Positions 47,586 through 62,343 of a stretch of DNA of 64,000 nt are shown here, in pieces. The stretch spans positions 1,426,001 through 1,490,000 of the forward strand of contig NZ_CP043661.1 of the NCBI RefSeq assembly GCF_014217565.1, read 5' to 3'. A program made the translations under genes and the position numbers. Source of the DNA: Kribbella qitaiheensis. GTDB lineage: Bacteria > Actinomycetota > Actinomycetes > Propionibacteriales > Kribbellaceae. Numbering within the stretch: the first letter of the stretch is position 1; every line of letters starts with the position of its first letter. The notes below the pieces were generated by a model. That model was not told the DNA's origin. It ran no database searches and saw nothing but the letters and a program-made list of their open reading frames with translations.

Positions 47586-47858
47586 TCAGCTGTAGGTGAC
47601 GTCCAGGACTCCGATGACCTTGTCCAGGCGGGCGGCGACTCGGCCGGCGTCGAAGCCGGCGCCTTCGACGACGATGTGGAGGGTGCAGGTTTCCAGGCAG
47701 AGTTTGAGTTCGCGGACGTCGTAGGGGTTCAGCTGGACGGCGATTCGGGCCAGTAGGCCGCGCGTCTCTACTACATCTGCGGTGAACGTGGTCAGGACGC
47801 GCTCCGGTACTGCGTACGTAGGCGCAGCCTCCGCCGTACGACTGTCGACCATCGTCAT
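47586..47858 (-). CDS. Small ACT-domain-like protein coupled to cimA
   Basis: 90 residues. Residues 18-88 fit an ACT beta-alpha-beta-beta-alpha-beta pattern (VLTTFTADVVETRGLLARIA, then TLHIVVEGAGFDAGRVAARL and VIGVLDVTY), similar to the IlvN regulatory fold. Its ATG overlaps the cimA stop (ATGA). This suggests a separate regulatory subunit for citramalate synthase, or a small amino-acid sensor. I do not recognise a named family, so the role is inference. Confidence 0.6.
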   Translation of the reverse strand: MTMVDSRTAEAAPTYAVPERVLTTFTADVVETRGLLARIAVQLNPYDVRELKLCLETCTLHIVVEGAGFDAGRVAARLDKVIGVLDVTYS

Positions 47859-49453
47859 CGGACGTCCTCCTTGTGGCGAAGCAGGCCGAAGGTGACGCCG
47901 TCGACCAGCGCCTCCCAGGAAGCCTCGACGATGTTGTGCCCGACCCCGACCGTCACCCAGGAACCTTCCCCGTCGGCCGTCTCGATCAGAACTCTGATGA
48001 CCGCGTCCGTGCCATGACCCTGGTCGAGGATCCGGACCTTGTAGTCACGCAGGTCGAACTTGTTCACCACCGGGTAGGCGCGTTCGATCGCGGACCGCAA
48101 GGCGTGGTCGAGCGCATTCACGGGGCCATTCCCCTCGCCGGTGACGATCTCGCGATCCCCACCCGCCACCAGCTTCACCGTCGCCTCGGAGACGGCTTCA
48201 CCCTCGGCGCGCGATTCGGTGATCACCCGCCACGACTCGACATCGAAGAAGCTCGGCCGGGCACCGGCGACCTCCTCGGTCAGCAGCAGTTCGAACGACG
48301 CGTCGGCGGCCTCGAACGTGTACCCGCGCGACTCCATCTCTTTCACCCGGTCCGTCACCCGGCTGACCAGTTCACGGTCGTTGCCGAGGTCGAAGCCGAG
48401 TTCGCGGCCCTTCAACTCGACACTCGCCCGGCCGGCCATCTCCGAGACGAGCATCCTCATGTCGTTGCCCACCAAGGCCGGATCCGTGTGCTGGTAGAGA
48501 TCGGGATCCACCTTGATGGCGCTGGCGTGCAGGCCCGCCTTGTGGGCAAACGCTGACACCCCGACGTACGGCTGCCGGTTCGACGGCGGCACGTTCGTCA
48601 CTTCGGCGATCGCATGCGCGATCCGATACGACTCGGCCAGCCGGCCGGGCGGAAGGAGTTGCATCCCGCGCTTGAGTTCGAGGTTGGCGACGACCGCGAG
48701 CAGGTCCGCGTTGCCGGTGCGTTCGCCGTACCCGTTGATCGTGCCCTGGACGTGCGTGCAGCCGGCCTCGACCGCGGCGATCGAGTTCGCGACCGCGCAG
48801 CCGCCGTCGTTGTGGGCGTGGATGCCGAGCCGGGCACCCGTCGACTCCAGTACGTCGCGGACGATGTCCTGCAGTTCGCGCGGCAGCGTGCCACCGTTCG
48901 TGTCGCACAAAGCGACCACATCGGCGCCCGCCTCGGCCGCGACCCGTACTACTTCCAGCGCGTACGCCCGGTTGGCCCGATACCCGTCGAAGAAGTGCTC
49001 TGTGTCGAGAAAGACCCGCTGCCCACTCGACCGCAGGTGCCGCACGGTCTCGCCGACCATCCGCAGGTTCTCGTCCAAGGTTGTCCGCAGCGCCCGCTCG
49101 ACATGCGCATCGTGGCTCTTGGCAACCAATGTGACCACCGACGCACCGGACTCGCGAAGGGCCGCGACCTGAGCGTCGTCGGCGGCTACCGAACCCGGCT
49201 TGCAGGTCGCACCGAAGGCAGCGAAGGTCGCGTGCCGCAGGTGCAATTCAGTCCTCGCCCGGGAGAAGAACTCGGTGTCCTTCGGTACTGCGCCTGGCCA
49301 CCCGCCCTCGATGAAGCCCACTCCGAGGTCGTCCAGGTGCTGCGCAATGGCGATCTTGTCCGCCACGGACAGCGCCAGACCCTCCTGCTGCGCACCGTCG
49401 CGCAGAGTCGTGTCATAGACGTGGAACTCATCGGCCTCGGCGGGTGTGCTCAC
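47855..49453 (-). CDS. cimA: Citramalate synthase
   Basis: 532 residues from GTG 49453 with GGAAGG upstream. The DRE-TIM metallolyase signature is YDTTLRDGAQQEGLALSVAD, followed by CDTNGGTLP, GIHAHNDGGCAVANSIAAVE and NGYGERTGNADLLAVV. A C-terminal LeuA-type allosteric domain (about residues 400-530) is present. It condenses pyruvate and acetyl-CoA to citramalate for isoleucine; the YVGVSAFAHKAGLHASAI segment is typical of CimA/homocitrate-type members. Behind a leader-peptide attenuator, and coupled to an ACT-domain gene. Confidence 0.9.
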   Translation of the reverse strand: MSTPAEADEFHVYDTTLRDGAQQEGLALSVADKIAIAQHLDDLGVGFIEGGWPGAVPKDTEFFSRARTELHLRHATFAAFGATCKPGSVAADDAQVAALRESGASVVTLVAKSHDAHVERALRTTLDENLRMVGETVRHLRSSGQRVFLDTEHFFDGYRANRAYALEVVRVAAEAGADVVALCDTNGGTLPRELQDIVRDVLESTGARLGIHAHNDGGCAVANSIAAVEAGCTHVQGTINGYGERTGNADLLAVVANLELKRGMQLLPPGRLAESYRIAHAIAEVTNVPPSNRQPYVGVSAFAHKAGLHASAIKVDPDLYQHTDPALVGNDMRMLVSEMAGRASVELKGRELGFDLGNDRELVSRVTDRVKEMESRGYTFEAADASFELLLTEEVAGARPSFFDVESWRVITESRAEGEAVSEATVKLVAGGDREIVTGEGNGPVNALDHALRSAIERAYPVVNKFDLRDYKVRILDQGHGTDAVIRVLIETADGEGSWVTVGVGHNIVEASWEALVDGVTFGLLRHKEDVR

Positions 49454-49497
49454 GATGTCGCCTTCCGTGGACAAAAAGGTCGGTGCTGCAGGCAAAC

Positions 49498-49525
49498 AAA
49501 AAACCTCCCGCAGGGTGCGAGAGGT
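49498..49525 (-). terminator. Attenuator terminator in the cimA leader
   Basis: On the minus strand ACCTCTCGCA, a CCC loop and TGCGGGAGGT form a 10-bp stem followed at once by TTTTTT. It is 45 bases ahead of the cimA start and within its leader, the layout of a transcription attenuator rather than an end-of-gene terminator. Confidence 0.85.
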
Positions 49526-49527
49526 TT

Positions 49528-49557
49528 GCGCGCTCAGGTACTGCCTGCTGAGCGCGC
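49528..49557 (-). promoter_or_regulatory. Pause or antiterminator hairpin in the cimA leader
   Basis: GCGCGCTCAG (49528-49537) and CTGAGCGCGC (49548-49557) pair perfectly over ten bases. The stem begins at the base after the leader-peptide stop codon, so a ribosome stalled in the peptide would prevent it from forming. Confidence 0.75.
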
Positions 49558-49584
49558 TCAAGTAATAATGTTCTGGGTCTTCAT
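49558..49584 (-). CDS. 8-residue leader peptide (MKTQNIIT) of cimA
   Basis: ATG 49584 to TGA 49560-49558 encodes M-K-T-Q-N-I-I-T. The Ile-Ile-Thr end fits control by isoleucine and its precursor threonine, and citramalate feeds isoleucine synthesis. The stop abuts the first hairpin and a terminator follows. No Shine-Dalgarno sequence is evident, so the transcript may be leaderless. It is too short for most gene finders. Confidence 0.65.
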   Translation of the reverse strand: MKTQNIIT

Positions 49585-49689
49585 AACGATTTGAGTGTGC
49601 CACAGCTCGTCCGAGGTACGGCGGATTGTCTCGGAAAGCGGACATCCGGTACGCCGATCAGTACTGCGGCGCTGCCCCCAGTCCAGATT

Positions 49690-50739
49690 TCAGGTGGAGT
49701 AAGGGCCGGTTGACTCTCTGATGACCAATTCCGGGCGCATCAGCAGGGATTGGCCGTGCATCGGGGTGCCGCTTTCGATTCCGGTCCGGAGGTTGGCGAA
49801 GGCGGCTGCGGCCATCTCTGCCAGTGGCTGGCGGATCGTGGTGAGGGGCGGGGAGGCCAGGTCGGCCAGGACGATGTCGTCGAAGCCGATGACCGATACG
49901 TCCGAGGCGATCCGTAGGCCGGCGTCGCGGATGCCGGCGCAGACACCGAGGGCGCACATGTCGTTGATGGCGACGATCGCGGTGGGCGGGTCCGGCTCGG
50001 CGAGCAGCTCCGCCGCGGCGGTCCGGCCGAGGCCGGCCACGTCGAGGTCGCCGTAGCTGTGGTCTGCCCCGCCGGACCACACCAGCGCATCGGCCGGATC
50101 GAGCCCGGCATCCTCCAGTGCGTCCGAGAAGCCGCGGAAGCGTTCGCGGCGGTTCACGCTGCCGAGCGCTCCCGAGACGAAGGCGAGCCGTCGGTGCCCA
50201 AGTTCGATCAGATGACGAGCCGCCAACCGGGCGCCCAGAACGTTGTCCAGGCTGATGTTGACCAGGCTCTCGTGGTCGCCGACCTGCGCAGTGCGGTCAA
50301 AGGCGACCAGGCTGAGGCCTTCGCCGACCATCGGCATCATGTGCTCCAGCGAAGGCAGCGAGGAGCACAGCACCACGCCGCCGATCCCGTCCGACCAGAG
50401 CTCTTCGACATACCTGCGCTCGCGCTCCGGATCACGCTCGGAGTTGCAGAGCAGCACGTGGTACCCGGCTTCCAGCGCGGCTGCCTCCAGGTGCCGGGCG
50501 AAAGTCCCCCAGAACGGGTTCGCGACCGATGGAACCACCAGGCCGATCACCTGGTTGCGCCCGGTGCGGAGCTGGCGGGCGGCGCGGTTCGGCCGGTAAC
50601 CGAGCTGCTCGATGGCGGTCTCGACCCGGCGCCGGGTGGCCGGCAGCATCCGGCCCGCGCGGCCGTTGAGCAGGTTCGACACCGTGCTCGGCGACACCCC
50701 CGCCTCCGCGGCAACCTGGTAGATCGTCACACCAGCCAT
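49690..50739 (-). CDS. LacI-family transcriptional regulator
   Basis: 349 residues from ATG 50739. The helix-turn-helix is TIYQVAAEAGVSPSTVSNLL with the hinge YRPNRAARQLRTGRNQVIG. The periplasmic-binding-like domain follows (LVVPSVANPFWGTFARHLEA, DGIGGVVLCSS, VIGFDDIVLADLASPPLTTI). It is divergent from the oligosaccharide importer and the following lyase genes and probably represses them until an oligo-uronate inducer binds. Direct repeats at 50835 are candidate operators. Confidence 0.9.
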   Translation of the reverse strand: MAGVTIYQVAAEAGVSPSTVSNLLNGRAGRMLPATRRRVETAIEQLGYRPNRAARQLRTGRNQVIGLVVPSVANPFWGTFARHLEAAALEAGYHVLLCNSERDPERERRYVEELWSDGIGGVVLCSSLPSLEHMMPMVGEGLSLVAFDRTAQVGDHESLVNISLDNVLGARLAARHLIELGHRRLAFVSGALGSVNRRERFRGFSDALEDAGLDPADALVWSGGADHSYGDLDVAGLGRTAAAELLAEPDPPTAIVAINDMCALGVCAGIRDAGLRIASDVSVIGFDDIVLADLASPPLTTIRQPLAEMAAAAFANLRTGIESGTPMHGQSLLMRPELVIRESTGPYST

Positions 50740-50834
50740 TCCGTACCCCTCCCGGTCATCCCCTGAGCGTAGCGGCCAAGCCCACCGAGGGCCAGCCATT
50801 GACAATCCGGAAGTGTCCCCTCGATTATCGCTAG

Positions 50835-50859
50835 ATCGATGCACCGGTAAATCGATGCA
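50835..50859. promoter_or_regulatory. Direct repeats, probable LacI operator
   Basis: ATCGATGCA occurs at 50835-50843 and again at 50851-50859, 16 bases apart, in the gap between the LacI gene and the binding-protein gene. Each copy contains the self-complementary ATCGAT. The spacing puts both copies on the same helix face less than two turns apart. Confidence 0.6.
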
Positions 50860-50886
50860 TCACTACTCCCGGAGGGGATGAGGTCG

Positions 50887-52200
50887 ATGGACCGGCAGCC
50901 AGCGGGCAGCACAAGGCGACAATTCGGTCAGCGGGCAGGCCTGGCGATGCTCGGGCTGGTGGCGGTCGGCTGCGGTGGGCCCGCACCGGCCAAGCCCGGC
51001 CAGAGCGACAAGGTGACCGGCGAGATCCGGATGATCACCCCGATCTTCGAAGGCTCGGACGGCGCCAAGGTGCTGTCGGGCCTGATGGCCGACTTCACCA
51101 AGCAGTACCCGGACGTGAAGATCGTCCCGGACTACACGACGTACGCGAAGCTCAACGAGAAGCTGACCACCTCGCTGGCCAGCGGACGCCCGTACGACGT
51201 GATGCTGATGGGCGTCGGCTGGATTCCCCCGTTCGCGGCGAAGGGGGTGCTCGCCGACCTCGGTGAGAGCGAGAGCGCGCTGACCAGTCTGTACAGCGAG
51301 CGCGTGGTCGCACCAGGCGTGTACGACGGCAAGGTCTACGCCCGGCCGATCATGCTGGACACCCGGTACGGCTACTACCGCAAGGATCTGTTCAAGCAGG
51401 CCGGGCTCGATCCGGAGAAGCCGCCGACGACCTTCGCGGAGATCCGCGACTACGCGCGCAAGCTGACCGTCCGCGACGGCAGCGGCAAACTGACCCGGGC
51501 CGGGATCGACATCCTCGGCATCGATCTGCGGCAGGGGTTCGAGACGCTGATGTGGGCGGCCGGTGGTGATCTGTTCACGCCGGACGGAAAGGTGGCGTTC
51601 AACTCCCCCAAGGCGGTCAGCGCGCTGCAGTTGATGACGGACATCATCCGCACCGACAAGTCCGAGGACTTCGGCTTCACCGAGCCGGGCGCGGCGACCG
51701 GCGTACCGATCGTGCAGGGTCGCGCCGCGATGATGCTCGGCCACAACAACACCTGGCAGGAGTTCGAGCAGAACGCGCCGAACCTGGTCAAGGACGGCCA
51801 GGTCGGGTTCTTCGTGGTCACCGGCGAGCGGCCGGCGCTGTTCCAGGGCGGCACGATCGGCGCGGTGTCGGCGAAGTCCAAGCAGCAGGCGGCAGCCAAG
51901 GAATGGGTCAAGTACCTCGCCTCCGCACAGCCGTCGTTGCGGGCGAACCAGCAACGCGGCAATGTGCCGGCGCTGAAGAGCCTCGTGTCGTCGGAGTACG
52001 TGCAGAAGAACCCGGCGGTCCAGTTCGCGATGAAGAACCTCGATCACGCGTACTCCGAGGGTGGCGTGCCAGCCTGGCTCCAGATTCGGGGCGATTTCAA
52101 GGCGGCGATCGAGTCGGCGCTGCTGGGCAAGACGACCCCGCAGCAGGCGCTGGACGACCTGGCCAAGAAGGCCGAAGCCGCGATCGCCTCCGGTAAATGA
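50887..52200 (+). CDS. Extracellular solute-binding lipoprotein, oligosaccharide ABC transporter
   Basis: About 437 residues from ATG 50887 (GAGGGG nine bases upstream; ATG 50878 is too close to it). STRRQFGQRAG is a twin-arginine-like start and LVAVGCGG the lipobox, so the protein should be lipid-anchored outside. The body is a family 1 binding protein (DYTTYAKLNEKLTTSLASGR, then FKQAGLDPEKPPTTFAEIRD and AWLQIRGDFKAAIESALLGK). Context with alginate-type lyases suggests unsaturated uronate oligomers as ligand. It is the first gene of the locus. Confidence 0.88.
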   Translation: MDRQPAGSTRRQFGQRAGLAMLGLVAVGCGGPAPAKPGQSDKVTGEIRMITPIFEGSDGAKVLSGLMADFTKQYPDVKIVPDYTTYAKLNEKLTTSLASGRPYDVMLMGVGWIPPFAAKGVLADLGESESALTSLYSERVVAPGVYDGKVYARPIMLDTRYGYYRKDLFKQAGLDPEKPPTTFAEIRDYARKLTVRDGSGKLTRAGIDILGIDLRQGFETLMWAAGGDLFTPDGKVAFNSPKAVSALQLMTDIIRTDKSEDFGFTEPGAATGVPIVQGRAAMMLGHNNTWQEFEQNAPNLVKDGQVGFFVVTGERPALFQGGTIGAVSAKSKQQAAAKEWVKYLASAQPSLRANQQRGNVPALKSLVSSEYVQKNPAVQFAMKNLDHAYSEGGVPAWLQIRGDFKAAIESALLGKTTPQQALDDLAKKAEAAIASGK

Positions 52201-53168
52201 CCGGTCCCATGACGACAACCGCAGTACGCCGTACCGAGACCGCCGTTGCCGAGGCTGCCCCGGCCAAGCCGCCTCGGAGGGGCAGGCGACTCGGTTGGGA
52301 GCGGCGGCGGGCCGCAGTACTGATGGTGGCACCGGCCGTGATCCTCCTGACCTGGTGGATCGGCATCCCGACGATCGCCAGCCTGGTGCTCGCCTTCACC
52401 CATTACGACGTCCTGGCCGGGACCATCTCCTGGGCCGGGCTGGGCAACTTCCGCGACATCTTCGCCGACCCGATCTGGAACCGCTCGATCTGGCACACGG
52501 TGGTCTACACCTTCTTCACCGTGCCGGTCGCGATGGCCATCGCCGTCGCGATCGCGGTCCTGCTGAACAGCAAGCTGCGCGGGCGGGCGTGGTACCGGGC
52601 GGCGTACTTCCTGCCCCACATCACCGCCACGGTGGCGATCGCGCTGGTCTGGATGTGGATGTTCGAGCCGAACATCGGACTCTTCAACGCCGTACTCGGT
52701 CAGGTCGGGATCCAAGGCCCGGCTTGGCTGTCCGATCCGGCCTGGGCGATGCCCGCGGTGATCGTCGTCAGCGTCTGGAAGGGCATCGGCCTGAAGATGC
52801 TGATCTACCTGGCCGCGCTGCAGTCGATCCCGCCCGAGCTGTACGAAGCTGCCGATGTGGACGGCGCAACTCCCAGGCGGAAGTTCTTCGCGATCACGCT
52901 TCCGTTGTTGCGGCCGGCAACGTTCTTTGTGTTCATCGTGTCGCTGATCGACTCGTTCCAGGTATTCGAGCAGGTCTACGTGCTGACGCCGGACGGCGGT
53001 CCGGCGAACGCCACCACAGTGATGACGCTGGAGATCTATCGCAGCGCGTTCGGCAAGTTCGACATGAGCCGGGCCTGCGCGCAGAGCATGGTGCTGTTCG
53101 TCTTCCTGCTCGTACTCACGGTGATCAGCCGGCGGCTGACCGGAAAGGACAGCGATGCGGAGCTCTAA
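52197..53168 (+). CDS. Carbohydrate ABC transporter permease, MalF type
   Basis: 323 residues overlapping the binding-protein stop by four bases (ATGA). After a basic N-terminus come six membrane segments, with the EAA loop YEAADVDGATPRRKFFAITL near residue 220. It pairs with the next permease. No ATPase is encoded in the locus, as in the importer at the left edge, so a shared ATPase elsewhere is probable. Confidence 0.9.
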   Translation: MTGPMTTTAVRRTETAVAEAAPAKPPRRGRRLGWERRRAAVLMVAPAVILLTWWIGIPTIASLVLAFTHYDVLAGTISWAGLGNFRDIFADPIWNRSIWHTVVYTFFTVPVAMAIAVAIAVLLNSKLRGRAWYRAAYFLPHITATVAIALVWMWMFEPNIGLFNAVLGQVGIQGPAWLSDPAWAMPAVIVVSVWKGIGLKMLIYLAALQSIPPELYEAADVDGATPRRKFFAITLPLLRPATFFVFIVSLIDSFQVFEQVYVLTPDGGPANATTVMTLEIYRSAFGKFDMSRACAQSMVLFVFLLVLTVISRRLTGKDSDAEL

Positions 53169-54015
53169 GAGCGAAGTCGTCCTGCACCTCGTACTGGCGA
53201 TCGGCGCGCTGTTGATGATCGTGCCGTTCGTCTGGATGGTGCTCTCGTCACTGAAGAGCCACACCGAGATCACCTCTTATCCGCCGACCTGGCTGCCCCG
53301 GCACTGGGACTTCGGCAACTACCCCGAGGCGCTCAAGTTCGCGCCGTTCGGGACCTACTTCCGCAACAGCCTGATCATCGCGACCGGCCATACCGTGCTG
53401 AACGTGGCACTGGCCTCGATGGCCGGCTACTCGCTGGCCCGGGTCCCGTTCCGCGGCCGGAGCGCGCTGTTCGTCGCGATGCTGGCCACGATGATGATCC
53501 CGACGTACACCAAGATCGTTCCGCAGTACCTGATCGCCAAGGCGATGCCGTTCTTCGGCGGCAACGACTACCTCGGCCGCGGCGGCTCCGGCTGGCTGGA
53601 CTCCTGGTGGGCGCTGATCGTGCCCGGTGCGCTGACCCCGCTCGCGATCTTCCTGTTCCGCCAGTTCTACCTGTCGCTGCCGCGGGAACTCGAGGAGGCG
53701 GCCCGGATCGACGGGATGGGTGAGTTCGGGATCTACGCCAAGGTGATGACGCCGCTGATCAAGCCGGCCATCGCGACCGTCGCGCTGATCACCTTCGAGA
53801 ACAGCTGGAACAACTTCCTCTGGCCGCTGATCGTGACCACCCGCGACGACCTGCGGGTGATCCAGGTCGGCCTCGCCGCGTTCCAGCAGAGCGAGCGCAC
53901 CTACTGGGAGTACCTGATGGCCGGTACGACGCTCGCGACGCTGCCGATGATCGTGTTGTTCCTGCTCACCCAGCGGTACTTCGTTCAGGGATTCGCCAAC
54001 AGTGGCATCAAGTGA
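53155..54015 (+). CDS. Carbohydrate ABC transporter permease, MalG type
   Basis: 286 residues, overlapping the previous permease by 14 bases. Membrane segments at about residues 8-30 and 75-280, the EAA-type loop ELEEAARIDGMGEFGIYAKV near residue 180, and the C-terminal LLTQRYFVQGFANSGIK typical of MalG homologues. It completes the importer of the uronate-oligomer locus. Confidence 0.9.
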   Translation: MRSSKSEVVLHLVLAIGALLMIVPFVWMVLSSLKSHTEITSYPPTWLPRHWDFGNYPEALKFAPFGTYFRNSLIIATGHTVLNVALASMAGYSLARVPFRGRSALFVAMLATMMIPTYTKIVPQYLIAKAMPFFGGNDYLGRGGSGWLDSWWALIVPGALTPLAIFLFRQFYLSLPRELEEAARIDGMGEFGIYAKVMTPLIKPAIATVALITFENSWNNFLWPLIVTTRDDLRVIQVGLAAFQQSERTYWEYLMAGTTLATLPMIVLFLLTQRYFVQGFANSGIK

Positions 54016-54025
54016 AGGAGCCGAG

Positions 54026-54793
54026 ATGACGTACGAACTCACCGGTCGCCGTGCCCTCGTCACCGGTGCCGGCGCCGGAATCGGGGCCGCGATCGCGGTC
54101 GCTCTGGCCGGCGCGGGCGCCGATGTGGCCGTCCACTACGCGCACTCCGCCGACGGAGCGGCCGAGGTGACGCGGCGGATCGAGCGGGCCGGTCGCAAAG
54201 CCGTTGCCATCGGCGCCGATCTGAGAGTCAGCGCGGACGCGGACCGGCTGGTAGCCGAGTCGGTCGCGTTCTTGGGTGGGCTGGACATCGTGGTCTGCAA
54301 CGCCGGTCACCTGGTCGGGCGTTCCTCGGTCGCCGAGATGTCCGACGAGCACTTCGAGCAGGTTCTCGACCTCAACCTCGGGACGACGTTCCGCACCATC
54401 CGGGCCGCCATCCCGCAGCTACGCCAAGCCGGTACGAACGGTCGCGTGGTGACGATGTCCTCGCTGGCCGCGCACAACGGCGGCGGCGCTGGTTCAGCCG
54501 TGTACTCCGCCGCGAAGGCAGGTATCCGCGGCCTCACCAAGGGCCTGGCCAAGGAACTCGCCGACACCGGTACGACGGTCAACGCGCTCGCGCCGGGCTT
54601 CATCGGGCAGACCGCGTTCCACGACACTTTTACTCCCCCGGAGGTCCAGCAGAACATCGTCGCCGGTACACCGTTGAAGCGCGCCGGGACCGTCGAGGAG
54701 GTCGCGGCCGCCGCGGTCTGGCTCTGCTCGGACGGCGCCGGCTACATCACCGGCTCGACCATCGACATCGACGGTGGAGCCTGGTTCCGGTGA
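54026..54793 (+). CDS. SDR-family oxidoreductase, possible DEH reductase
   Basis: 255 residues from ATG 54026 with GGAG upstream. The classical short-chain dehydrogenase signatures are RRALVTGAGAGIGAAIAVAL (TGxxxGxG), the NAG element VVCNAGHLVG, catalytic Ser (VVTMSSLAAHNG), YxxxK (VYSAAKAGIRG) and the C-terminal GYITGSTIDIDGGAWF. The NADP- or NAD-preference is unclear. In alginate loci such enzymes reduce 4-deoxy-5-hexulose uronate (DEH) to 2-keto-3-deoxygluconate; that role is inferred from neighbours. Confidence 0.85.
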   Translation: MTYELTGRRALVTGAGAGIGAAIAVALAGAGADVAVHYAHSADGAAEVTRRIERAGRKAVAIGADLRVSADADRLVAESVAFLGGLDIVVCNAGHLVGRSSVAEMSDEHFEQVLDLNLGTTFRTIRAAIPQLRQAGTNGRVVTMSSLAAHNGGGAGSAVYSAAKAGIRGLTKGLAKELADTGTTVNALAPGFIGQTAFHDTFTPPEVQQNIVAGTPLKRAGTVEEVAAAAVWLCSDGAGYITGSTIDIDGGAWFR

Positions 54794-56259
54794 TGATTCC
54801 CAGCGAGCGGGGCGGCTGGTGGCACGCCTACGTGTGCCCCACCCACGGCGTCGAACTCGACCACGTCGACCTGCTCACCGGTCACTTCCCTGCCGAAGGT
54901 GCACCTTGCCGGTACGGCTGCCGTCTCGACACCCCAGCTGTCCGTGGTGCCTGGACGGTCCTCGCCCATCAGGCCTGCGCGGCCGACCTCCTGCGGATGG
55001 CTCGGGGCGGTGAGGACATCACTCCTCAGTTGGAGGAGTACGCGTCTTTGTACGCCACTGGCGGAGCTGATCCGGAGCCGTGGATGCTCGGCGGTGTCCT
55101 GTTCCAGCAAGCGCTGACCGAGGCGATCTGGGCGGTCACGATCGCCCGGGCAGCCTGGGCAATGCCAACCCGCAGTACTGCTGTTGCCGGGTTGCTCGAC
55201 GCCTTGGCCTCGGCTGCTGGCAGGGCTCGCGGCAAACTGCTTGCTGAGGGCAAGTTCACCTCGAACTACGTCGCCTGGCTAGACGCCGCCGGTTACCTCT
55301 GCTCGCGCGACCCGGAGTGGCTCGAAGGCGAGCACGGCCTCTACGAGCACCTGCTGGCCGCGACCTACGATGACGGCTGGCAGTGGGAGGCGAGCACCTA
55401 CTACCACTCCTTCGTACTCCGTGCCGCCGTGCTCGCGACGGAAGGTTTGTCCGTGCCCGCGAAGGTTGCCGAGCGCATGCATTCCATGGCCGGTGTGCTC
55501 ACCAACCTGCGCTTCGGCCCACATCTGGCCGCTCTCCACGATGGTCCGTACAGCCGAGTGCCGTACGACGCGGAGCTTGCCGAGCTGGCTGAGTTCCCCG
55601 CTCCCCCGGCACGCCTCGGCGTCACGGTCTACGAGCACGCCGGGTACGCCGTACTGCGGTCCGCCGAGTTGCTCGCGATCGTCGACTTCGGGCCGCACGG
55701 CGGGTCGCACGGTCATCGGGACAAACTCGCGCTCTACCTCTACGGCCAGGACGCGTGGCAGCCGGATCCGGGGCAGGTCCCCTACGGCCACCAAGGCTGG
55801 CGCCGGTACTACGCGAGCACGGCCGCGCATCCCGCGTTCCGCATCGACGATTCGGAGCAGGCCGAGTGCAGTGGTCGGCTGGTCTCGGCGGACAGCAAAT
55901 CGGTCGTCGTTGCCTGCGACACTGCCTACCCAGGCGTGACCGCCAGGAGGCAGGTGACGCTGCACAATGATGGGCAGCTGACTGATGAGCTGGTTGTCGA
56001 GTGCAACGAACCATACAAGATCACGGCGCAACTGCGACCCGCAGTACCGGTGTCTGTGCGTGGAACCACCAGCTATTGGGACAAGTCGCTCGTCGGATCG
56101 CATGTCGGGCCGGCTGAGTTCTTGCTTCGGCCCGGGCCTGGTCCCGCTGACGATCCGCAGCGAGTTGCCGATCAGGTCGACTGGTCGGCCTACGACGCGA
56201 CCAGCGCCACCTTCCGTTCGACGTACCGTGCGATCCCGGAGGTGCAGGCATGCTCCTGA
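54790..56259 (+). CDS. Heparinase II/III-family polysaccharide lyase (PL15/PL17-like)
   Basis: 489 residues, coupled to the SDR (ATGA). The N-terminus has a Cys-rich WWHAYVCPTHGVELDH and CRYGCRLDTPAVRGAW, followed by an alpha/alpha toroid (about residues 90-290, with WQWEASTYYHSFVLRA) and a beta-sandwich domain with FGPHGGSHGHRDKLALYLYG. No signal peptide is seen, so it should act in the cytoplasm on imported oligomers. By neighbourhood it would be an exo-type oligoalginate lyase; exact family needs a profile search. Confidence 0.8.
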   Translation: MMIPSERGGWWHAYVCPTHGVELDHVDLLTGHFPAEGAPCRYGCRLDTPAVRGAWTVLAHQACAADLLRMARGGEDITPQLEEYASLYATGGADPEPWMLGGVLFQQALTEAIWAVTIARAAWAMPTRSTAVAGLLDALASAAGRARGKLLAEGKFTSNYVAWLDAAGYLCSRDPEWLEGEHGLYEHLLAATYDDGWQWEASTYYHSFVLRAAVLATEGLSVPAKVAERMHSMAGVLTNLRFGPHLAALHDGPYSRVPYDAELAELAEFPAPPARLGVTVYEHAGYAVLRSAELLAIVDFGPHGGSHGHRDKLALYLYGQDAWQPDPGQVPYGHQGWRRYYASTAAHPAFRIDDSEQAECSGRLVSADSKSVVVACDTAYPGVTARRQVTLHNDGQLTDELVVECNEPYKITAQLRPAVPVSVRGTTSYWDKSLVGSHVGPAEFLLRPGPGPADDPQRVADQVDWSAYDATSATFRSTYRAIPEVQACS

Positions 56260-58241
56260 TCAACGATCTCGATGCTTTGCGAGCCTCGCTGTCCACTACC
56301 CATCAGGCACAGTGGCGCCGGTTGTACGAGCAGTGCGAGACGTATCGACAGCGGGTGCCGCCGGCTGAGCACCCGACCGCCAGCATCACGTACTTCGGGC
56401 CGGCCGCCGCGAATCTCGCCCTCGCATTCCGGCTGACCGGCCAGCGGCACTACCTGGAAGAGGCGTGGCGCTGGATCTCGACCTGCATCGCCTATCCGCA
56501 CTGGGGCAAGGCGAAGCTGCCCGACCATGACCTGGATGCCGGGTGGTTGTTGCACGGATTGTCCTTGGCCTACAGCTGGCTGGGTTCGGATCTCGAGCCA
56601 CACCGGGCCGCCGAGTTGCGAGCGAAGCTGGAGCTACAAGGGCAGCGCTTGTACGACTTCGCCGTCGAAACCGAGGGGCGATGGTGGTCGTCGAGCTACT
56701 GGCAGAACCACAACTGGATTTGCTACGCCGGACTCGCGACCGCCGGCTATGCGCTAAATCAGCCGGACTGGACGAAGCGGGCCCGCGAAAACTTCGAGAC
56801 GGTCCTGTCGCTGCTCCCGGCTGACGGGTCGGATGCCGAGGGCGTCGTCTACTGGCGGTACGGCGTACCGTGGCTGGCCGTTTATGCAGACCTGCTGCAG
56901 CGCACCGAAGGCGTCGATCTGTGGGCGGGCTGCGACTTCCTCGCCAACACCTTCCGGTGGCGGCTGCATCAGTCGGCGCCGGGCTTCGAGGAGAACATCG
57001 ACCATGGCGACTGCCACGATCGGCGCAGCGGGCACTCGGTTGCCCTCTATTACCGATTGGCTTCGGCCTATCGCCATGGGCAGGCGCAGTGGTTGGCTCA
57101 GCGGGTCGCGGATCGCTACTTCTGGCGGGAGGCCTACGCGTCGGGGGTGAAGCCGGGCGTGATGCCGGAGGCGTTCTACGAGCTGCTCTGGTTCGATCCG
57201 TCGGTGCAGCCCGTCGAGCCCGATGCCGAGCCGACTACCGCGTACTTCCCCGATCTCGGCCAGGTGGTGAGTCGCACCTCCTGGGCGGACGGCGCGACGA
57301 CGGTGTCGTTCAAGTCGGCTCCCGGTGGCGGCAACGGCGCCTGGGATGCCGCCGAACGGCATCGCCGCGAACTGGGCTGGGACACCTTGAACGCCGGCCA
57401 CCATCACCCCGACGCCGGCAGCTTCGTGCTGATCTCGCACGGCGCGTTCCTCGCGGTCGACGACGGCTACTGCAATCGCAAACGCGCTCGCTACCACAAC
57501 CTCATCCTCGTCGACGGCCAAGGCTGGAAGGGCGAAGATCGCTATCACGGCTACAAGGACCTCCCGTACGACGCTCGTCCGACCATGAGCGACGTCCTTG
57601 CCGAGGAGGGGTTCGTGCATGCGATCGCGTCGACGGCGGCGATGTTCGACGCGGACCTCGGCGTACGGCAGGTCGATCGGACGATGGTCGTCACGCCACG
57701 CGGGCGGCTGGTGATCCGGGACTCGCTGGCCGCCGCCCAGCCGCGAACGTGGACCTGGCTATTGCACTCCGACTGGCCGTCCGAACAGGTCTCCAGTCGC
57801 CTGCACGTACTCCGATCCGGCCCGGCCCAGGCGTGGGTGACCCGACTCGGCCCCAACGGCATCGCGGCGACGACAGCCCGAAGCACCATCGAGGCCAACC
57901 CGACCGCGTCGACCCCCGCCCTGTCGATCACCAAGAACCTCGAAGCCCTGCAATGGACCACGCCTCGTTTGATCAGCACCGAGTTCCTCGCCGCGATCGA
58001 ACCGACCTCGGCACTCGACCCGACACCACCAACAGCCACCAAGATGCCTGGCACCGGGGTCGCCTTCGACGACGAACAGGTCCACTTCGGCCCGCTCATC
58101 GAGGCACCGGGCCTCTCGGCCGACGCCCTCGCAGTAATCCGCAGCGGCAACCGGGTGGCAGTGGTCGGCGCAACCCGCGTCACCGTGTCCGGCCGCACCC
58201 TGCACGAGTCGGCTACTCCCTTCACCGGCGTACTGCGATGA
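56250..58241 (+). CDS. Heparinase II/III domain-containing protein, large
   Basis: 663 residues from ATG 56250 with GGAGG seven bases upstream, overlapping the preceding gene by ten bases. The N-terminal half is a helical toroid (EEAWRWISTCIAYPHW, then WWSSSYWQNHNWICYAGLA). The C-terminal half is the beta-sheet heparinase II/III domain (LGWDTLNAGHHHPDAGSFVL, then DDGYCNRKRARYHNLILVDG). No signal peptide is visible, suggesting cytoplasmic breakdown of imported uronate oligomers. Which PL family it belongs to is unclear from eye inspection. Confidence 0.78.
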   Translation: MLLINDLDALRASLSTTHQAQWRRLYEQCETYRQRVPPAEHPTASITYFGPAAANLALAFRLTGQRHYLEEAWRWISTCIAYPHWGKAKLPDHDLDAGWLLHGLSLAYSWLGSDLEPHRAAELRAKLELQGQRLYDFAVETEGRWWSSSYWQNHNWICYAGLATAGYALNQPDWTKRARENFETVLSLLPADGSDAEGVVYWRYGVPWLAVYADLLQRTEGVDLWAGCDFLANTFRWRLHQSAPGFEENIDHGDCHDRRSGHSVALYYRLASAYRHGQAQWLAQRVADRYFWREAYASGVKPGVMPEAFYELLWFDPSVQPVEPDAEPTTAYFPDLGQVVSRTSWADGATTVSFKSAPGGGNGAWDAAERHRRELGWDTLNAGHHHPDAGSFVLISHGAFLAVDDGYCNRKRARYHNLILVDGQGWKGEDRYHGYKDLPYDARPTMSDVLAEEGFVHAIASTAAMFDADLGVRQVDRTMVVTPRGRLVIRDSLAAAQPRTWTWLLHSDWPSEQVSSRLHVLRSGPAQAWVTRLGPNGIAATTARSTIEANPTASTPALSITKNLEALQWTTPRLISTEFLAAIEPTSALDPTPPTATKMPGTGVAFDDEQVHFGPLIEAPGLSADALAVIRSGNRVAVVGATRVTVSGRTLHESATPFTGVLR

Positions 58242-58927
58242 GCTGGCGGATCGACCGAAAGCAGGCGGTGCTGCCGGGGCGGTTGGCAGGGGGTGCTGTC
58301 ACGCCGCGGGGGCGGTCGGGAGCGGGCGGTGCTGCGATGAGCTCCAGGGTTGGTTGGGAGCAGGTCGCCTTGCGGTGGTTGCAGTGGATCTCTGTTCCTG
58401 CGTCGGCTGGGCTTGCCTTCTGTTGCTTGAGCCTCGGGGCGGTCACGTGGTTGCCAGCCCTCGCCGCGACCGCCCAGGTCCTTCACCGCTGGCGTGAAGA
58501 CGGTGACGAACGCGCCTTCCTCGGCGTCTTCGCCGACTTCCGCAACCACTGGCGCCGGCTCTGGCGACACAGCCTCATCTCCACCGCGATCGGCGCGGTC
58601 CTCACGGCCAACCTGGTCTTCCTGCTCGGTAGAGGCGCAGTTGGCTTCGTGCTCCTGGCAGTCCAACTCGGCCTTGCTGCCGCGTTCATCGTCTACCACT
58701 TGGCTTTTGCGGCGGCCATCGGCCACCGGCCCACCGCCTCACTGTCCAGCCGCCGGCACGCGGCGATCCACCTCGCGTTCGGCTCCTGGCGCGGCGCATT
58801 GTTGCTCCTGGCAACTGTTCTCGTCATAGCCCTGACCGCCCCCCTCGGCATCGGTCCCCTGCTCTTCGGCCCCTCAGTCCCTCTCCTGGCAGCCCTGTCC
58901 CTCCAGTCCCGCCTCGAACAATCGTGA
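58238..58927 (+). CDS. YesL/DUF624-family membrane protein
   Basis: 229 residues if ATG 58238 (ATGA overlap with the lyase) is used; ATG 58337 would give 196, closer to the family start (SSRVGWEQVALRWLQWISVP). Four to five membrane segments are visible (ASAGLAFCCLSLGAVTWLPA, LTANLVFLLGRGAVGFVLLA, LLLLATVLVIALTAPLGIG). YesL-type proteins usually accompany oligosaccharide ABC importers such as those for rhamnogalacturonan, as here. Its exact role in uptake is unknown. Confidence 0.75.
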   Translation: MSWRIDRKQAVLPGRLAGGAVTPRGRSGAGGAAMSSRVGWEQVALRWLQWISVPASAGLAFCCLSLGAVTWLPALAATAQVLHRWREDGDERAFLGVFADFRNHWRRLWRHSLISTAIGAVLTANLVFLLGRGAVGFVLLAVQLGLAAAFIVYHLAFAAAIGHRPTASLSSRRHAAIHLAFGSWRGALLLLATVLVIALTAPLGIGPLLFGPSVPLLAALSLQSRLEQS

Positions 58928-58934
58928 GGACACC

Positions 58935-59993
58935 ATGCGCACCCCAACCATCTTGTTCGCCACCTGCCTACTGGGCGCCGCCATCGCCCTCCCCGCGCAG
59001 GCCAACCCCAGCCAGTACTACGTAAGCCCGGTCGGCAGCGACTCCAGCACCGGCAGCACCCCATCGGCCCCCTTCGCCACGCTGCAGAAGGCACTCGACG
59101 TCGCACCGACCGGCTCAACCATCCACCTTGCCGCCGGCCGCTATCTCCAAGACGCCATCACCCGCCAGGACGGCGTCACCGTCACCGGACCGGCCGACGC
59201 CGTCCTGCTCGGTGCAGGCGGCAGCCGCATCCTCCAGGTCCGCAACGACCACGTGACGCTGACCGGCTTCACCGTCGACGGTCTGGCCGGTTCGCCCGAC
59301 AGCCCAGACGGCTATCGCGGCAAGTTGGTCTACGTCATGAGCACCACCCCAGGCGACGGCGTGACCGGCCTGCGGATCCGTGGCATGCACTTACGCAATG
59401 CCGGCGACGAGTGCGTCCGGCTGCGCTACCTGATCACCGACGCGGACCTCTCGGCAAACCAGATCGGCCCCTGCGGCGTACACGACTTCGTCTTCGGAGG
59501 CGGCGGCAAGAACGGCGAAGGCATCTATCTCGGCACCGCACCCGAGCAGCAAGGCGCCAACGGCGCACCCGACGCACGGCCGGACGTCAGCACCGGCAAC
59601 CGCATCCACGACAACCTGATCAACACCCGCGGCAACGAGTGCGTCGACATCAAGGAGAACTCGACTGCGAACGTCGTCGAACGCAACGTCTGTACCGGCC
59701 AGCAGGACCCGCGATCGGCCGGGTTCGACTCACGAGGTAGCGGCAACGTGGTCCGGTACAACGTTGCCGTCGACAACGTCGGAGCGGGCATCCGCTTCGG
59801 CGGCGACACTCCTGCTGATGGCGTGAATAACGATGCCTACAGCAACGTCATCGCGCGCAACGCCGGTGGCGGGATCAAGTTCCAGGCGACGCCGCAGGGA
59901 CGCCTCTGCGGCAACGCGATGACCGGCAACACCGGCGGCGATGCAGTCGGCACCTACGCCGCGCAGTACCAACCGTCCCAACCCTGTCAATGA
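58935..59993 (+). CDS. Secreted right-handed beta-helix protein (polysaccharide lyase candidate)
   Basis: 352 residues with a Sec signal peptide ending near AQANPSQ (residues 1-24). YYVSPVGSDSSTGSTPSAPF and the ATLQKALDVAPTGSTIHLAAG start are the typical opening of parallel beta-helix enzymes, followed by many PbH1 repeats (GLRIRGMHLRNAGDECV, NRIHDNLINTRGNECVDIKE, VVRYNVAVDNVGAGIRFGG). It sits between YesL and the PL7 lyase, so it probably cuts or binds the same polymer outside the cell. PL6-type alginate or chondroitin lyases share this fold but the catalytic residues cannot be assigned by eye. Confidence 0.75.
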   Translation: MRTPTILFATCLLGAAIALPAQANPSQYYVSPVGSDSSTGSTPSAPFATLQKALDVAPTGSTIHLAAGRYLQDAITRQDGVTVTGPADAVLLGAGGSRILQVRNDHVTLTGFTVDGLAGSPDSPDGYRGKLVYVMSTTPGDGVTGLRIRGMHLRNAGDECVRLRYLITDADLSANQIGPCGVHDFVFGGGGKNGEGIYLGTAPEQQGANGAPDARPDVSTGNRIHDNLINTRGNECVDIKENSTANVVERNVCTGQQDPRSAGFDSRGSGNVVRYNVAVDNVGAGIRFGGDTPADGVNNDAYSNVIARNAGGGIKFQATPQGRLCGNAMTGNTGGDAVGTYAAQYQPSQPCQ

Positions 59994-60002
59994 GAGGCCC
60001 TC

Positions 60003-61181
60003 ATGAAGAAGCTCAGAATTCTGCTGGTGACAGCCCTTGCCGCGGCGGCGGCAGGGATCGCGGCCGCGGCGATCGCGGCCGCGCCCGCCAGCGCCGCGAA
60101 CGTGGAGATCACCCCGGGCGCGAGCTCGGTCACCGCGAGCACGAGCGACAGCAACGTCGCGGCCAATGCGGTCGACAAGAACTACTCCACCCGCTGGTCC
60201 GGTGATGGTGACGGCGCCAGCTTGCAACTCGACCTGGGCAGTTCCAAGACCGTCAGCCACATCAAGGTGGCTGTTTACAAGGGCAACGAGCGGCGCAACG
60301 ACTTCGAGCTGCAACTGTGGAACGGCTCCGCCTGGGCGACCGTGTTCGACGGCCTGAGCAGCGGCAGCACGACCGGGTTGCAGACCTTCGACTTCACCGA
60401 CCAGGCCGCTTCCAAGGTCCGGTACGTCGGGCACGGGTACCAGGTGAACGCCGGTGGAACGGGCACCTGGAACAGCATCACCGAGGTGGAGGTCTGGGGC
60501 CCCGACGGCGGGTCGCCGGGCGGCGGCGTACCGGCTGATGTTCTCGACCTGACCAACTGGAAGGTCACCCTGCCGACCGGTTCGGCCGGTAGCCCGACCG
60601 AGATCAAGCAGCCGGCCCTCGCCACCTTCTCGGTCGACCCGTACTTCACCGTGGTCGGGGACGCGGTCCAGTTCCGCGCTCCGGTCAACGGGGTCACCAC
60701 CAGCGGATCGAGCTACCCGCGGTCCGAACTGCGCGAGATGACCAGCAACGGCAGCGCCAACGCGAGCTGGTCGTCGACGTCAGGAACCCACACGTTGGTG
60801 GTGAGCGAGTCCTTCGACCACCTGCCGGCCGGCAAACCGCAGCTGGTCGGCGCGCAGATTCACGACGCCGCTGACGACATCACCGTGTTCCGGCTGGAGG
60901 GCAGCAGCCTCTACATCACCAACGGGAACACCACTCACTACAAGCTGGTCACCAGCTCGTACACGCTCGGCACTGTCTACGAAGCCAAGTTCGTGGTGAG
61001 TGGCGGGCAGGTGAAGGCCTACTACAACGGTGTCCTGCAGACCACGATCAGCAAGAGCTTCTCCGGCGCCTACTTCAAGGCCGGCGCCTACACCCAGGCC
61101 AACTGCACCAACTCGTCACCCTGCGCGGAGTCGAACTACGGCCAGACCACAATCCACAACGTGACGGTCACCCACTCCTAA
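60003..61181 (+). CDS. Secreted PL7 alginate lyase with N-terminal F5/8-type C (discoidin-like) binding domain
   Basis: 392 residues. A signal peptide (residues 1 to about 32, ending APASAAN) precedes a carbohydrate-binding discoidin-like domain (residues 35-165; ITPGASSVTASTSDSNVAAN, then YSTRWSGDGDGASLQLDLG). The PL7 domain follows (residues 178-392) with all three signature motifs: YPRSELREM (RxELR), AQIHDA (QIH) and YFKAGAYTQ. In the PL7 family QIH is associated with guluronate-containing blocks. It is the clearest evidence for alginate degradation. Confidence 0.93.
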   Translation: MKKLRILLVTALAAAAAGIAAAAIAAAPASAANVEITPGASSVTASTSDSNVAANAVDKNYSTRWSGDGDGASLQLDLGSSKTVSHIKVAVYKGNERRNDFELQLWNGSAWATVFDGLSSGSTTGLQTFDFTDQAASKVRYVGHGYQVNAGGTGTWNSITEVEVWGPDGGSPGGGVPADVLDLTNWKVTLPTGSAGSPTEIKQPALATFSVDPYFTVVGDAVQFRAPVNGVTTSGSSYPRSELREMTSNGSANASWSSTSGTHTLVVSESFDHLPAGKPQLVGAQIHDAADDITVFRLEGSSLYITNGNTTHYKLVTSSYTLGTVYEAKFVVSGGQVKAYYNGVLQTTISKSFSGAYFKAGAYTQANCTNSSPCAESNYGQTTIHNVTVTHS

Positions 61182-61251: not shown

Positions 61252-62343
61252 TCAGCAGACCTTTGTCATCCAGTTATGTGTGTCTTTGGTACGGCCGTAC
61301 TGGACGTCGAGGAGAGCCGACCGGATTGCGCCGGTGATGGGGCCCCCGTTGCCGTCGGCCACCTGGACCTCGCCGTCCTTCCACTTCAGCGACGCGACCG
61401 GGGTGATCACCGCGGCCGTACCGCAGGCGAAGACCTCGCGGATCTTGCCGGAGGCGGCACCGTCGCGCCACTCGTCGATCGAGATCTTCCGCTCGGCGAC
61501 GGAGTAGCCGAGGTCGGTGACCAGCTTCAGGATCGAGTCACGGGTGATCCCCTCGAGGATCGTGCCGGACAGCTCCGGCGTGACCACCGAGTTGTCGTCG
61601 AGGACGAAGTACAGGTTCATCCCGCCGAGCTCTTCGATCCACTTCTTCTCGACCGCGTCGAGGAAGGCGACCTGGTCGCAACCCTGCTCGGTCGCCTCGG
61701 CCTGGGCCAGCAGCGACGAGGCGTAGTTGCCACCCGTCTTGGCCGCGCCGGTGCCACCGGGGGCCGCGCGGGTGTACTCCTCGCTCAGCCAGATCCGGAC
61801 CGGCTTGACGCCCTTGGCGAAGTACGAGCCGGCGGGCGACGCGATCGCGCAGTACGTGACCTGGGCCGACGGGCGGACGCCGAGGAACGGGTCCGAGCCG
61901 AACATGAACGGTCGCAGGTACAGCGAGGTCTCGCCACCGGCGGGCACCCAGGCCTTGTCGAGCTCGACCAGCTTGTGCAACGAGTCCAGGAACGCGGCCT
62001 CGGGCAGCTCCGGCAGCGCGAGCCGGTGCGCGGAGCGGTTGAACCGCGCCGCGTTGGCCTCGGGCCGGAACAGGTGGATCGAGTCGTCGGGGTGCCGGTA
62101 GGCCTTCATCCCCTCGAAGATGGTCTGGGCGTAGTGGAACACCGAGGTCGCCGGAGAAAGCTCCAGCGGCCCGAAGGCGGTGATCCTCGCGTCGTGCCAG
62201 CCGTTGTCCCGGGTCCACGTGGCGATCGCCATGTGGTCGGAGAACTGTTGCCCGAATCCTGGGTTCGCCAGGATCTGGGCGCGCTGGTCGTCGCTGGCCG
62301 GTTGGGTGTTTGGCTCAACGGAGAACTGCAGATCGGCGCTCAT
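61252..62343 (-). CDS. ilvE: Branched-chain amino-acid aminotransferase
   Basis: 363 residues, fold-type IV PLP enzyme. Visible are FHYAQTIFEGMKAYRHPDDS, NRSAHRLALPELPE, YLRPFMFGSDPFLGVRPSAQ and TGGNYASSLLAQAEATEQG with the catalytic lysine region, then EVFACGTAAVITPVASLKWK. It adds the amino group to the keto-acids of leucine, isoleucine and valine. It lies 206 bases downstream of leuB on the same strand with a hairpin between, so it may be transcribed separately. Confidence 0.95.
   Translation of the reverse strand: MSADLQFSVEPNTQPASDDQRAQILANPGFGQQFSDHMAIATWTRDNGWHDARITAFGPLELSPATSVFHYAQTIFEGMKAYRHPDDSIHLFRPEANAARFNRSAHRLALPELPEAAFLDSLHKLVELDKAWVPAGGETSLYLRPFMFGSDPFLGVRPSAQVTYCAIASPAGSYFAKGVKPVRIWLSEEYTRAAPGGTGAAKTGGNYASSLLAQAEATEQGCDQVAFLDAVEKKWIEELGGMNLYFVLDDNSVVTPELSGTILEGITRDSILKLVTDLGYSVAERKISIDEWRDGAASGKIREVFACGTAAVITPVASLKWKDGEVQVADGNGGPITGAIRSALLDVQYGRTKDTHNWMTKVC

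Follow-up and report, generated by a model that had tools for sequence, protein, structure and literature searches.

The closest described systems to the locus reported here are the alginate-assimilation clusters, such as that of Flavobacterium UMI-01 (PMC5334617) and that with the pair of polysaccharide lyase (PL) family 17 enzymes in Vibrio (PMC12336832), which are described there as holding an endolyase, oligo-alginate lyases, a reductase of 4-deoxy-L-erythro-5-hexoseulose uronate (DEH), a 2-keto-3-deoxygluconate (KDG) kinase and a 2-keto-3-deoxy-6-phosphogluconate (KDPG) aldolase. In our study, a stretch of 64,000 nucleotides from Kribbella qitaiheensis (the window; positions 1,426,001-1,490,000 of an 8.16 Mb contig) was analysed, in which ten genes lie between a cimA-like gene and ilvE: lacI on the minus strand and, divergent from it, nine plus-strand genes, the last of which encodes a PL7 enzyme with a carbohydrate-binding module of family 32 (CBM32). 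This locus is probably a LacI-controlled alginate-utilisation operon. With the known clusters it shares an outer endolyase, two inner oligo-lyase-like enzymes (HepA and HepB), a candidate reductase of the short-chain dehydrogenase/reductase (SDR) family, and candidates for the KDG kinase and the aldolase, found in the genome or in the loci of relatives. It is unlike them in its ATP-binding cassette (ABC) importer with LacI and YesL, in a second inner enzyme, HepB, which is like dermatan sulfate epimerase 1 (DS-epi1) and is not a plain PL15 or PL17 member, and in the location of the kinase and aldolase elsewhere. The locus is of a known, ordinary kind, and its one part of wider interest is HepB, which by sequence and by VIA-align of its model appears closer to the animal enzyme than to any bacterial enzyme of solved structure.

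The likeness of the PL7 protein to a polyguluronate lyase is the strongest evidence on the polymer. The gene of this predicted secreted CBM32-PL7 endo-alginate lyase occupies 60003-61181 on the plus strand, and a signal peptide was recognised by eye; in Pfam, the protein reached 136.2 bits with Alginate_lyase2 against a curated cut-off of 29.7, and 42.5 bits with F5_F8_type_C. Its catalytic domain is identical to polyguluronate lyase 1uai at 152 of 217 residues (70%, E 3.4e-98), from which it differs by the additional N-terminal CBM32. This identity makes alginate the likely polymer and lends good support to the same proposal in the first-pass annotation of the locus. The RxELR, QIH and YFKAGxYxQ motifs named in that annotation were read in the translation as YPRSELREM, GAQIHD and AYFKAGAYTQ, and PRSELR, QIH and YFKAGAYTQ align with the same letters in 1uai. 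Alginate is also favoured by the profiles of HepA and HepB, which reach the PL17 and PL15 alginate lyases, and by the KDG-kinase-like and KDPG aldolase genes present in some of the relatives' loci and in the own genome. The first-pass annotation also suggested that the locus may serve in feeding on bacterial exopolymer; acetylated bacterial alginate would call for acetyl esterases, and none was found by Pfam among the ten proteins of the locus.

The genes previously listed (lacI, importer, SDR, heparinase-like pair, YesL, beta-helix and PL7) held in position and strand. Pfam cut-offs were passed by LacI, the solute-binding protein (SBP), both permeases, the SDR, both Hepar proteins and PL7, and across the whole genome the only matches over the cut-offs to PL7 (one) and to Hepar_II_III_C (two) lie within the locus. 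Genes said to overlap throughout do so at five of the eight plus-strand junctions (SBP-permease A, permease A-permease B, SDR-HepA, HepA-HepB and, if YesL starts at 58238, HepB-YesL), whereas the remaining three are gapped, by 13 bases between permease B and the SDR (ATG start), 7 between YesL and the beta-helix gene and 9 between the latter and PL7. A chance grouping is unlikely because seven core genes recur jointly in 70 of the 71 long homologous loci, which were chosen by HepB.

In the proposed pathway, the PL7 lyase would cut alginate outside the cell, with a preference for the guluronate-rich parts as judged from its 70% identity to 1uai, and would release oligo-uronates; secretion and cytoplasmic location were judged by eye throughout. 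The oligo-uronates would be imported by the solute-binding lipoprotein (50878-52200, plus strand; SBP_bac_1 157.5 bits, lipobox by eye) and permeases A (52197-53168) and B (53155-54015), both on the plus strand with BPD_transp_1 and with UgpA-like and UgpE-like matches, respectively, below the cut-off, with the ATPase supplied from another locus and YesL in an accessory role. The YesL/DUF624-like membrane protein (plus strand, to 58927) starts at 58238, in an ATGA overlap, or at 58337; scanned from the in-frame position 58322 inside the gene it gave 23.7 bits with DUF624 against a cut-off of 24.2, and its match to the MusI family was weak. In the cytoplasm, HepA (54790-56259) and HepB (56250-58241), both on the plus strand and neither with a signal peptide visible by eye, would form an exolytic oligo-uronate lyase pair giving the unsaturated monomer and then DEH, which the SDR (54029-54793, plus strand; adh_short_C2) may reduce to KDG. 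KDG kinase and KDPG aldolase would end the path. These later genes lie outside the window, as had been noted; candidates are side by side at about 2.064 Mb of the own genome, where a KDPG aldolase gene (PF01081, 123.8 bits) adjoins a KDG-kinase-like gene with 44% identity to that of a relative; their substrates and their link with the operon are presumptive. The genome has candidates for every step of such a path, from endolyase and oligo-lyase to reductase, kinase and aldolase, the specificities of the reductase, the kinase and the inner lyases being presumptive.

Several findings weigh against this pathway. No ABC ATP-binding subunit was found by Pfam among the ten proteins, so the 'complete' binding-uptake-degradation chain of the first-pass annotation was overstated, although its named parts are present. 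The DEH reductases 4w7i and 3afm are among the PDB matches of the SDR, ranked below FabG-like enzymes, from which the SDR is not separable. The NCBIfam matches of the own kinase and aldolase lie below the curated cut-offs, and it is for this reason that their substrates are proposed tentatively; no site like the putative LacI operator described below was seen near this pair, nor near the second KDPG aldolase gene. The same core is also present in loci of the PL8 type (31 of 81) and may therefore serve more than one polymer.

HepA carries further points of this kind. Both inner proteins have Hepar_II_III_C, as their description as two heparinase-II/III-like enzymes implied, but they are not alike, HepA being of PL17/PL12 and HepB of DS-epi1 character. 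HepA, a candidate oligo-uronate lyase, reached 64.6 bits with Hepar_II_III_C, and its family profile (39 members) matched PL17 8bdd best in the PDB (E 2e-16), with PL12 heparinase III at about 3e-10. For its model (predicted local distance difference test, pLDDT, 93.4), PL17 and PL12 were level in Foldseek (1.2e-17 and 1.3e-17), and PL12 was best in VIA-align (rows of Z 29.5-30.1 vs 25.9 for PL17). PL17 enzymes pair the Alginate_lyase domain PF05426 with Hepar_II_III, and this N-terminal domain was not found in the window HepA, for which Hepar_II_III_C was the only match at E 0.001. HepA thus appears, by sequence and model, to stand between PL17 and PL12. Moreover, all 39 HepA members have Asn159-Tyr160 where PL17 has Asn-His. 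This Asn-His pair is described as conserved in PL17 (PMC12336832); a His at that place is reported to be shared by several families of alginate lyases, and GAGase III to depend on it for acting on alginate (PMC12088678). The Asn-Tyr pair makes an alginate activity of HepA less sure than its setting suggests.

The relatives of the locus bear directly on which polymers the core may serve. Homologous loci were taken as the best 80 of 174 relatives from one scan, 81 being tabulated with L021; they were picked by the HepB peptide patterns [YF]WQNHNW and DHGDCHD, so that the conservation of those residues is partly due to selection. As the gene calls were made by codon composition and at times seemed to be on the wrong strand (clusters u10, u36, u38 and u73), tblastn was added to the tabulation. 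The PL8, AXE1, GDSL, KDG kinase and KDPG aldolase clusters were each named from one member compared with Pfam or NCBIfam, and PL7 was counted at no less than 55% identity and 150 bits, weaker matches (30-42%, often to the CBM32 part or to a second PL7) being dropped. All seven core genes were present in 70 of the 71 loci of at least 19 kb, L043 being without SBP and permeases. A beta-helix gene was present in 41 of the 81 loci, a KDG-kinase-like gene in 15 and a KDPG aldolase gene in 10. HepB itself is rare in the class, with matches at E 1e-10 in 6 of 394 genomes, counting the own genome; one of the six, G360, has only a distant DUF4962/Hepar protein of 28% identity. A conserved actinobacterial polyuronate operon with an exchanged endolyase was not found described in the open-licence literature.

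It is distinctly possible that the core (importer, SDR, HepA and HepB) handles the uronate oligomers of several polymers and that the swapped secreted lyase decides which. The core is constant while PL7 (14 of 81 loci) and PL8 (31 of 81) never occur together, AXE1 accompanies all 31 PL8 loci and none of the 14 PL7 loci, and the one PL8 protein compared, that of L021, is most like xanthan lyase 1j0m, which also counts among the points against an alginate-dedicated core. The SBP is 51-69% identical to that of the window in 12 PL7 loci vs 43-46% in 29 PL8 loci. On the HepB tree, two changes between PL7 and PL8 were counted over 45 labelled rows; with so few changes, PL type and lineage are confounded, which lessens the weight of these contrasts. 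On the other side, the tabulated active-site residues are the same in 39 of 39 HepA and 36 of 36 HepB members (in HepB His154, Tyr201, His384 and Tyr407) whatever the type, and PL8 enzymes can be mannuronate-specific (7r2x, a weak match), so both types could be for alginate. A core of this kind would be compatible with alginate here: PL7 would stand for alginate, whereas in Streptomyces and other Kribbella the pairing of PL8 with acetyl esterases would stand for acetylated alginate of bacterial origin or for a different acetylated polyuronate.

Some further arrangements were observed among these loci. A PL8 gene with AXE1, often with a GDSL esterase, replaces PL7 in the operon at L021:1773-6424 and in 30 further loci. 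A fn3-bearing protein of about 1,320 residues follows YesL at L022:3354-7319 (the cluster is also in L054, L056 and L067); it has no lyase domain by Pfam, and part of it is weakly HepB-like. At L025:7580-11305, near other sugar-importer genes, CBM32 and CBM96 domains accompany DUF4962 and Hepar_II_III_C in one protein. In two genomes from another genus, sequence matching the CBM32 portion of PL7 is placed between HepA and HepB (L173:6197-7957 and L174:11714-12250), followed in L173 by a weak beta-helix match; L067 has a similar extra gene there. In Pseudonocardia the beta-helix gene is on the other side of lacI (L052:2215-3306 and L103:2216-3304), and YesL is followed by a regulator-like gene on the opposite strand and a DHDPS-like gene (names by eye), the latter perhaps a KDG-splitting aldolase. 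At L116:5074-6891, a sialidase-like secreted protein (name by eye) is encoded upstream of, and divergent from, the KDPG aldolase-KDG kinase pair.

HepB, a DS-epi1-like and PL15-like candidate exolyase with DUF4962 and Hepar_II_III_C, showed human DS-epi1 (6hzn) as its first match in the PDB by single-sequence phmmer (E 1.2e-18), followed by PL35 8khw (7.3e-12). With a 36-member profile the order was 6hzn (1.4e-27), PL15 3a0o (7e-20) and PL35 9o3q (1e-14), the PL35 matches ranging from 1e-14 to 3e-13. The model of HepB (pLDDT 88.6) gave Z 34.8 with 6hzn in VIA-align (root-mean-square deviation 3.1, 614 aligned) and 31.2 with heparinase II, the next, whereas in Foldseek 3a0o (2.5e-27) and 6hzn (3.9e-27) were level, with TM-scores of 0.68/0.60 and 0.79/0.71, respectively. 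His205, Tyr261 and His450 of DS-epi1 align to His154, Tyr201 and His384 of HepB, and Tyr473 coincides with Tyr407 when the profile alignment is read by eye but is shifted from it by one column in the single-sequence alignment; the four HepB residues are invariant in all 36 members. The manganese ligands of DS-epi1 are given as His452, Glu470 and Asn481 (PMC8006597), and their possible counterparts in HepB are His386, Asp404 and His416 or Asn417. HepB is like DS-epi1 in fold, catalytic residues and possible metal site, and unlike it in a 20% identity in the structural alignment, a bacterial catabolic setting and the absence of a signal peptide by eye. The PL15 oligo-alginate lyase Atu3025 (3a0o), second in the profile search, has the same fold (Z 28.2) and aligned only from its residue 142, HepB being without its N-terminal part. 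The PL35 GAGases 8khv and 8khw also share the fold (Z 28.8 and 28.4) at a lower sequence similarity (E about 3e-13). GAGase III is described as having His where its relatives have Asn and as also cutting polymannuronate (PMC12088678); HepB has Asn-His-Asn at the aligned place.

For the reverse search, a piece of 356 residues was taken from human DS-epi1 according to the alignment of that enzyme with HepB. It matched all 98 HepB rows, with a best score of 82.9 bits and a median of 58.6, and no HepA, PL8, shuffled or reversed sequence was among its matches. The comparators, of which PL15 and PL35 were partial pieces, reached 19.7 (PL15), 14.4 (the DUF4962 protein of L025) and 11.3 bits (PL35); the forward phmmer and profile searches are free of both these faults. 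Against 396 Actinomycetota genomes, the piece matched three at E of 0.001 or less: the own genome, through HepB, and two others through HepB orthologues of 56% identity which adjoin SBP, permease, SDR, HepA and YesL matches. Phyla beyond Actinomycetota were sampled through plasmids, and among 72,556 plasmid records four matches at E up to 10 were obtained, of which two were significant, both HepB orthologues: Ilyobacter (7e-11, 41% identical to the window HepB) and Streptomyces (2e-7, 63%). The two weak ones were Agrobacterium 'alginate lyases' (0.06 and 0.6). The HepB family is mostly actinobacterial, and DUF4962 was matched at E of 0.01 or less in 32 of the 36 aligned members. In the open-licence literature we found no family of bacterial proteins that is described as similar in sequence to DS-epi1.

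HepB is most likely an oligo-uronate exolyase, elimination being likelier than epimerisation in this setting. It is unlikely that HepB is instead a uronate C5-epimerase which converts an end or inner residue (mannuronate to guluronate or the reverse) for cutting by HepA. DS-epi1 is its best solved relative by sequence and in VIA-align, and the DS-epi1 catalytic residues are aligned and invariant in the family; yet heparinase II, a lyase, is reported to have these same residues (PMC8006597), so the motif does not separate an epimerase from a lyase. The level Foldseek result with the PL15 exolyase, the one-column offset of Tyr473 and the catabolic setting, in which two oligo-lyases are usual, also speak against epimerisation. 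There is, similarly, a small chance that HepB is a bacterial uronate C5-epimerase of the DS-epi type, or a lyase of this type that can also epimerise, and that its family, seen in oligo-uronate operons of actinobacteria and fusobacteria, is the bacterial side of the branch giving the animal epimerase. The HepB gene of Ilyobacter polytropus (Fusobacteriota) is grouped with genes for a sodium:solute symporter, a heparinase II/III protein, a cupin that may act as KdgF, an SDR and KduD, a setting which favours a lyase route to KDG; the heparinase II/III protein there matched the NCBIfam oligo-alginate lyase model weakly (61 bits vs a cut-off of 1400) and HepA through a short 23% stretch only.

It is improbable that PL7 is incidental and that the locus serves a polyuronate other than alginate, such as glucuronan, oligogalacturonate or a glycosaminoglycan. 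The fold of HepA is near heparinase III and HepB is near DS-epi1, heparinase II and the PL35 glycosaminoglycan lyases, but the PL7 domain is far from the glucuronan PL7 7nde (E 3.6e-8 vs 3.4e-98 for 1uai, on which glucuronan was rejected), the unsaturated glucuronyl hydrolase that glycosaminoglycan breakdown calls for was not found by Pfam among the ten proteins, and PL7 lies within 10 kb of HepB in six genera (Micromonospora, Catellatospora, Allokutzneria, Streptomyces, Nocardiopsis and Phytoactinopolyspora).

The alginate operon is putatively controlled by the LacI-family repressor (49690-50739, minus strand; Pfam LacI and Peripla_BP_3 over cut-off), a view based on the order of the genes and a palindrome that precedes SBP. 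A LacI homologue, divergent from the operon, is present in all 71 long homologous loci. The putative operator GTAAATCGATGCAT lies at 50847-50860 in the lacI-SBP gap, with a second ATCGATGCA copy 16 bases upstream, and palindromes such as AGTAAATCGATGCACT or AGTGCATCGATTTACC are present in this gap in many, not all, relatives; a motif common to all was rejected, as several Kribbella, Salinibacterium and others are without the ATCGAT core in the scanned stretch. The pattern RTRHATCGATDYAY was built from the relatives' lacI-SBP gaps. Across the 8.16 Mb genome, this degenerate palindrome occurs twice vs none for the reversed-pattern control, and with one mismatch allowed a site also occurs in 23 of 100 shuffles of the window. 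The other genomic site (2,869,221), at a subtilisin-like gene (name by eye), was taken as chance.

The secreted beta-helix protein (58935-59993, plus strand; DUF1565 25.4 vs 20.3 bits, signal peptide by eye) was left unassigned. Its residues E235, D238, K240, E241, D265 and R267 are invariant in 20 aligned members, and by eye it shows a Glu-x4-Lys...Arg pattern like that of PL6. A lyase assignment was considered and not adopted, since in the PDB its profile matched mostly the N-terminal repeats of other beta-helix proteins; the first match was rhamnogalacturonan lyase 5olq over 48 residues, C5-epimerases appeared at E above 1 only, and no PL6 title was among the 19 sequences listed at E of 5 or less.

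The neighbours outside the locus are open reading frames which we take to be a cimA-like gene (47855-49645, minus strand) and ilvE (61252-62343, minus strand; orthologue in 39 of 39 relatives). In 20 of 23 congener loci, ilvE is followed within 1.5 kb by a match to the cimA-like gene. The end of lacI and the start of the cimA-like gene, which share a strand, are separated by 44 bases (window 49646-49689), and the insert may have altered cimA expression. The organism is placed with Kribbella, since six HepB rows labelled 'same genus' are identical to named Kribbella rows. Of 38 genomes of the family, 15 have HepB, counting the own genome; the remaining 14 genes are 63-68% identical to that of the window, two of them carry one in-frame stop, and in the tree every one of the 14 belongs to the Kribbella clade. 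The HepB genes of Catellatospora and Pseudonocardia are 71-72% identical to that of the window, and the window row, on a long end branch (0.38), is placed with PL7-type Micromonosporaceae and Pseudonocardia rows. A single clade of the window and Kribbella was rejected by the approximately unbiased test (p-AU 0.011, on a quick tree and for a group chosen after seeing it). PL7 is directly beside ilvE in 2 of 23 congener ilvE loci (1.5 kb flanks), 79% and 83% identical; these congeners (G399, L165:15202-16356, and G415, L166:2255-3499) have a lone CBM32-PL7 in the ilvE-cimA gap, which matches neither the importer nor the inner lyases, and their genomes have no match to HepB. Three other congeners examined have neither PL7 nor core genes in this gap. 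The lone-PL7 and empty-gap congeners leave two histories for the site: either the whole set was received and later trimmed in some, or it grew around a lone PL7. A 682 kb Streptomyces plasmid carries the operon, so a plasmid location is possible; there, lacI, the importer and SDR genes and the Hep pair precede two genes annotated as PL7.

In published work, animal DS-epi1 is presented as related to bacterial lyases in a real but unclear way, with low identity said to limit phylogeny (PMC11848413). The HepB family combines a plain sequence similarity to DS-epi1 with a clear metabolic setting, which makes both the origin of the enzyme and the switch between lyase and epimerase testable. Hence, the likeness of HepB may help to trace the origin of DS-epi1, an animal enzyme of connective-tissue sugars.

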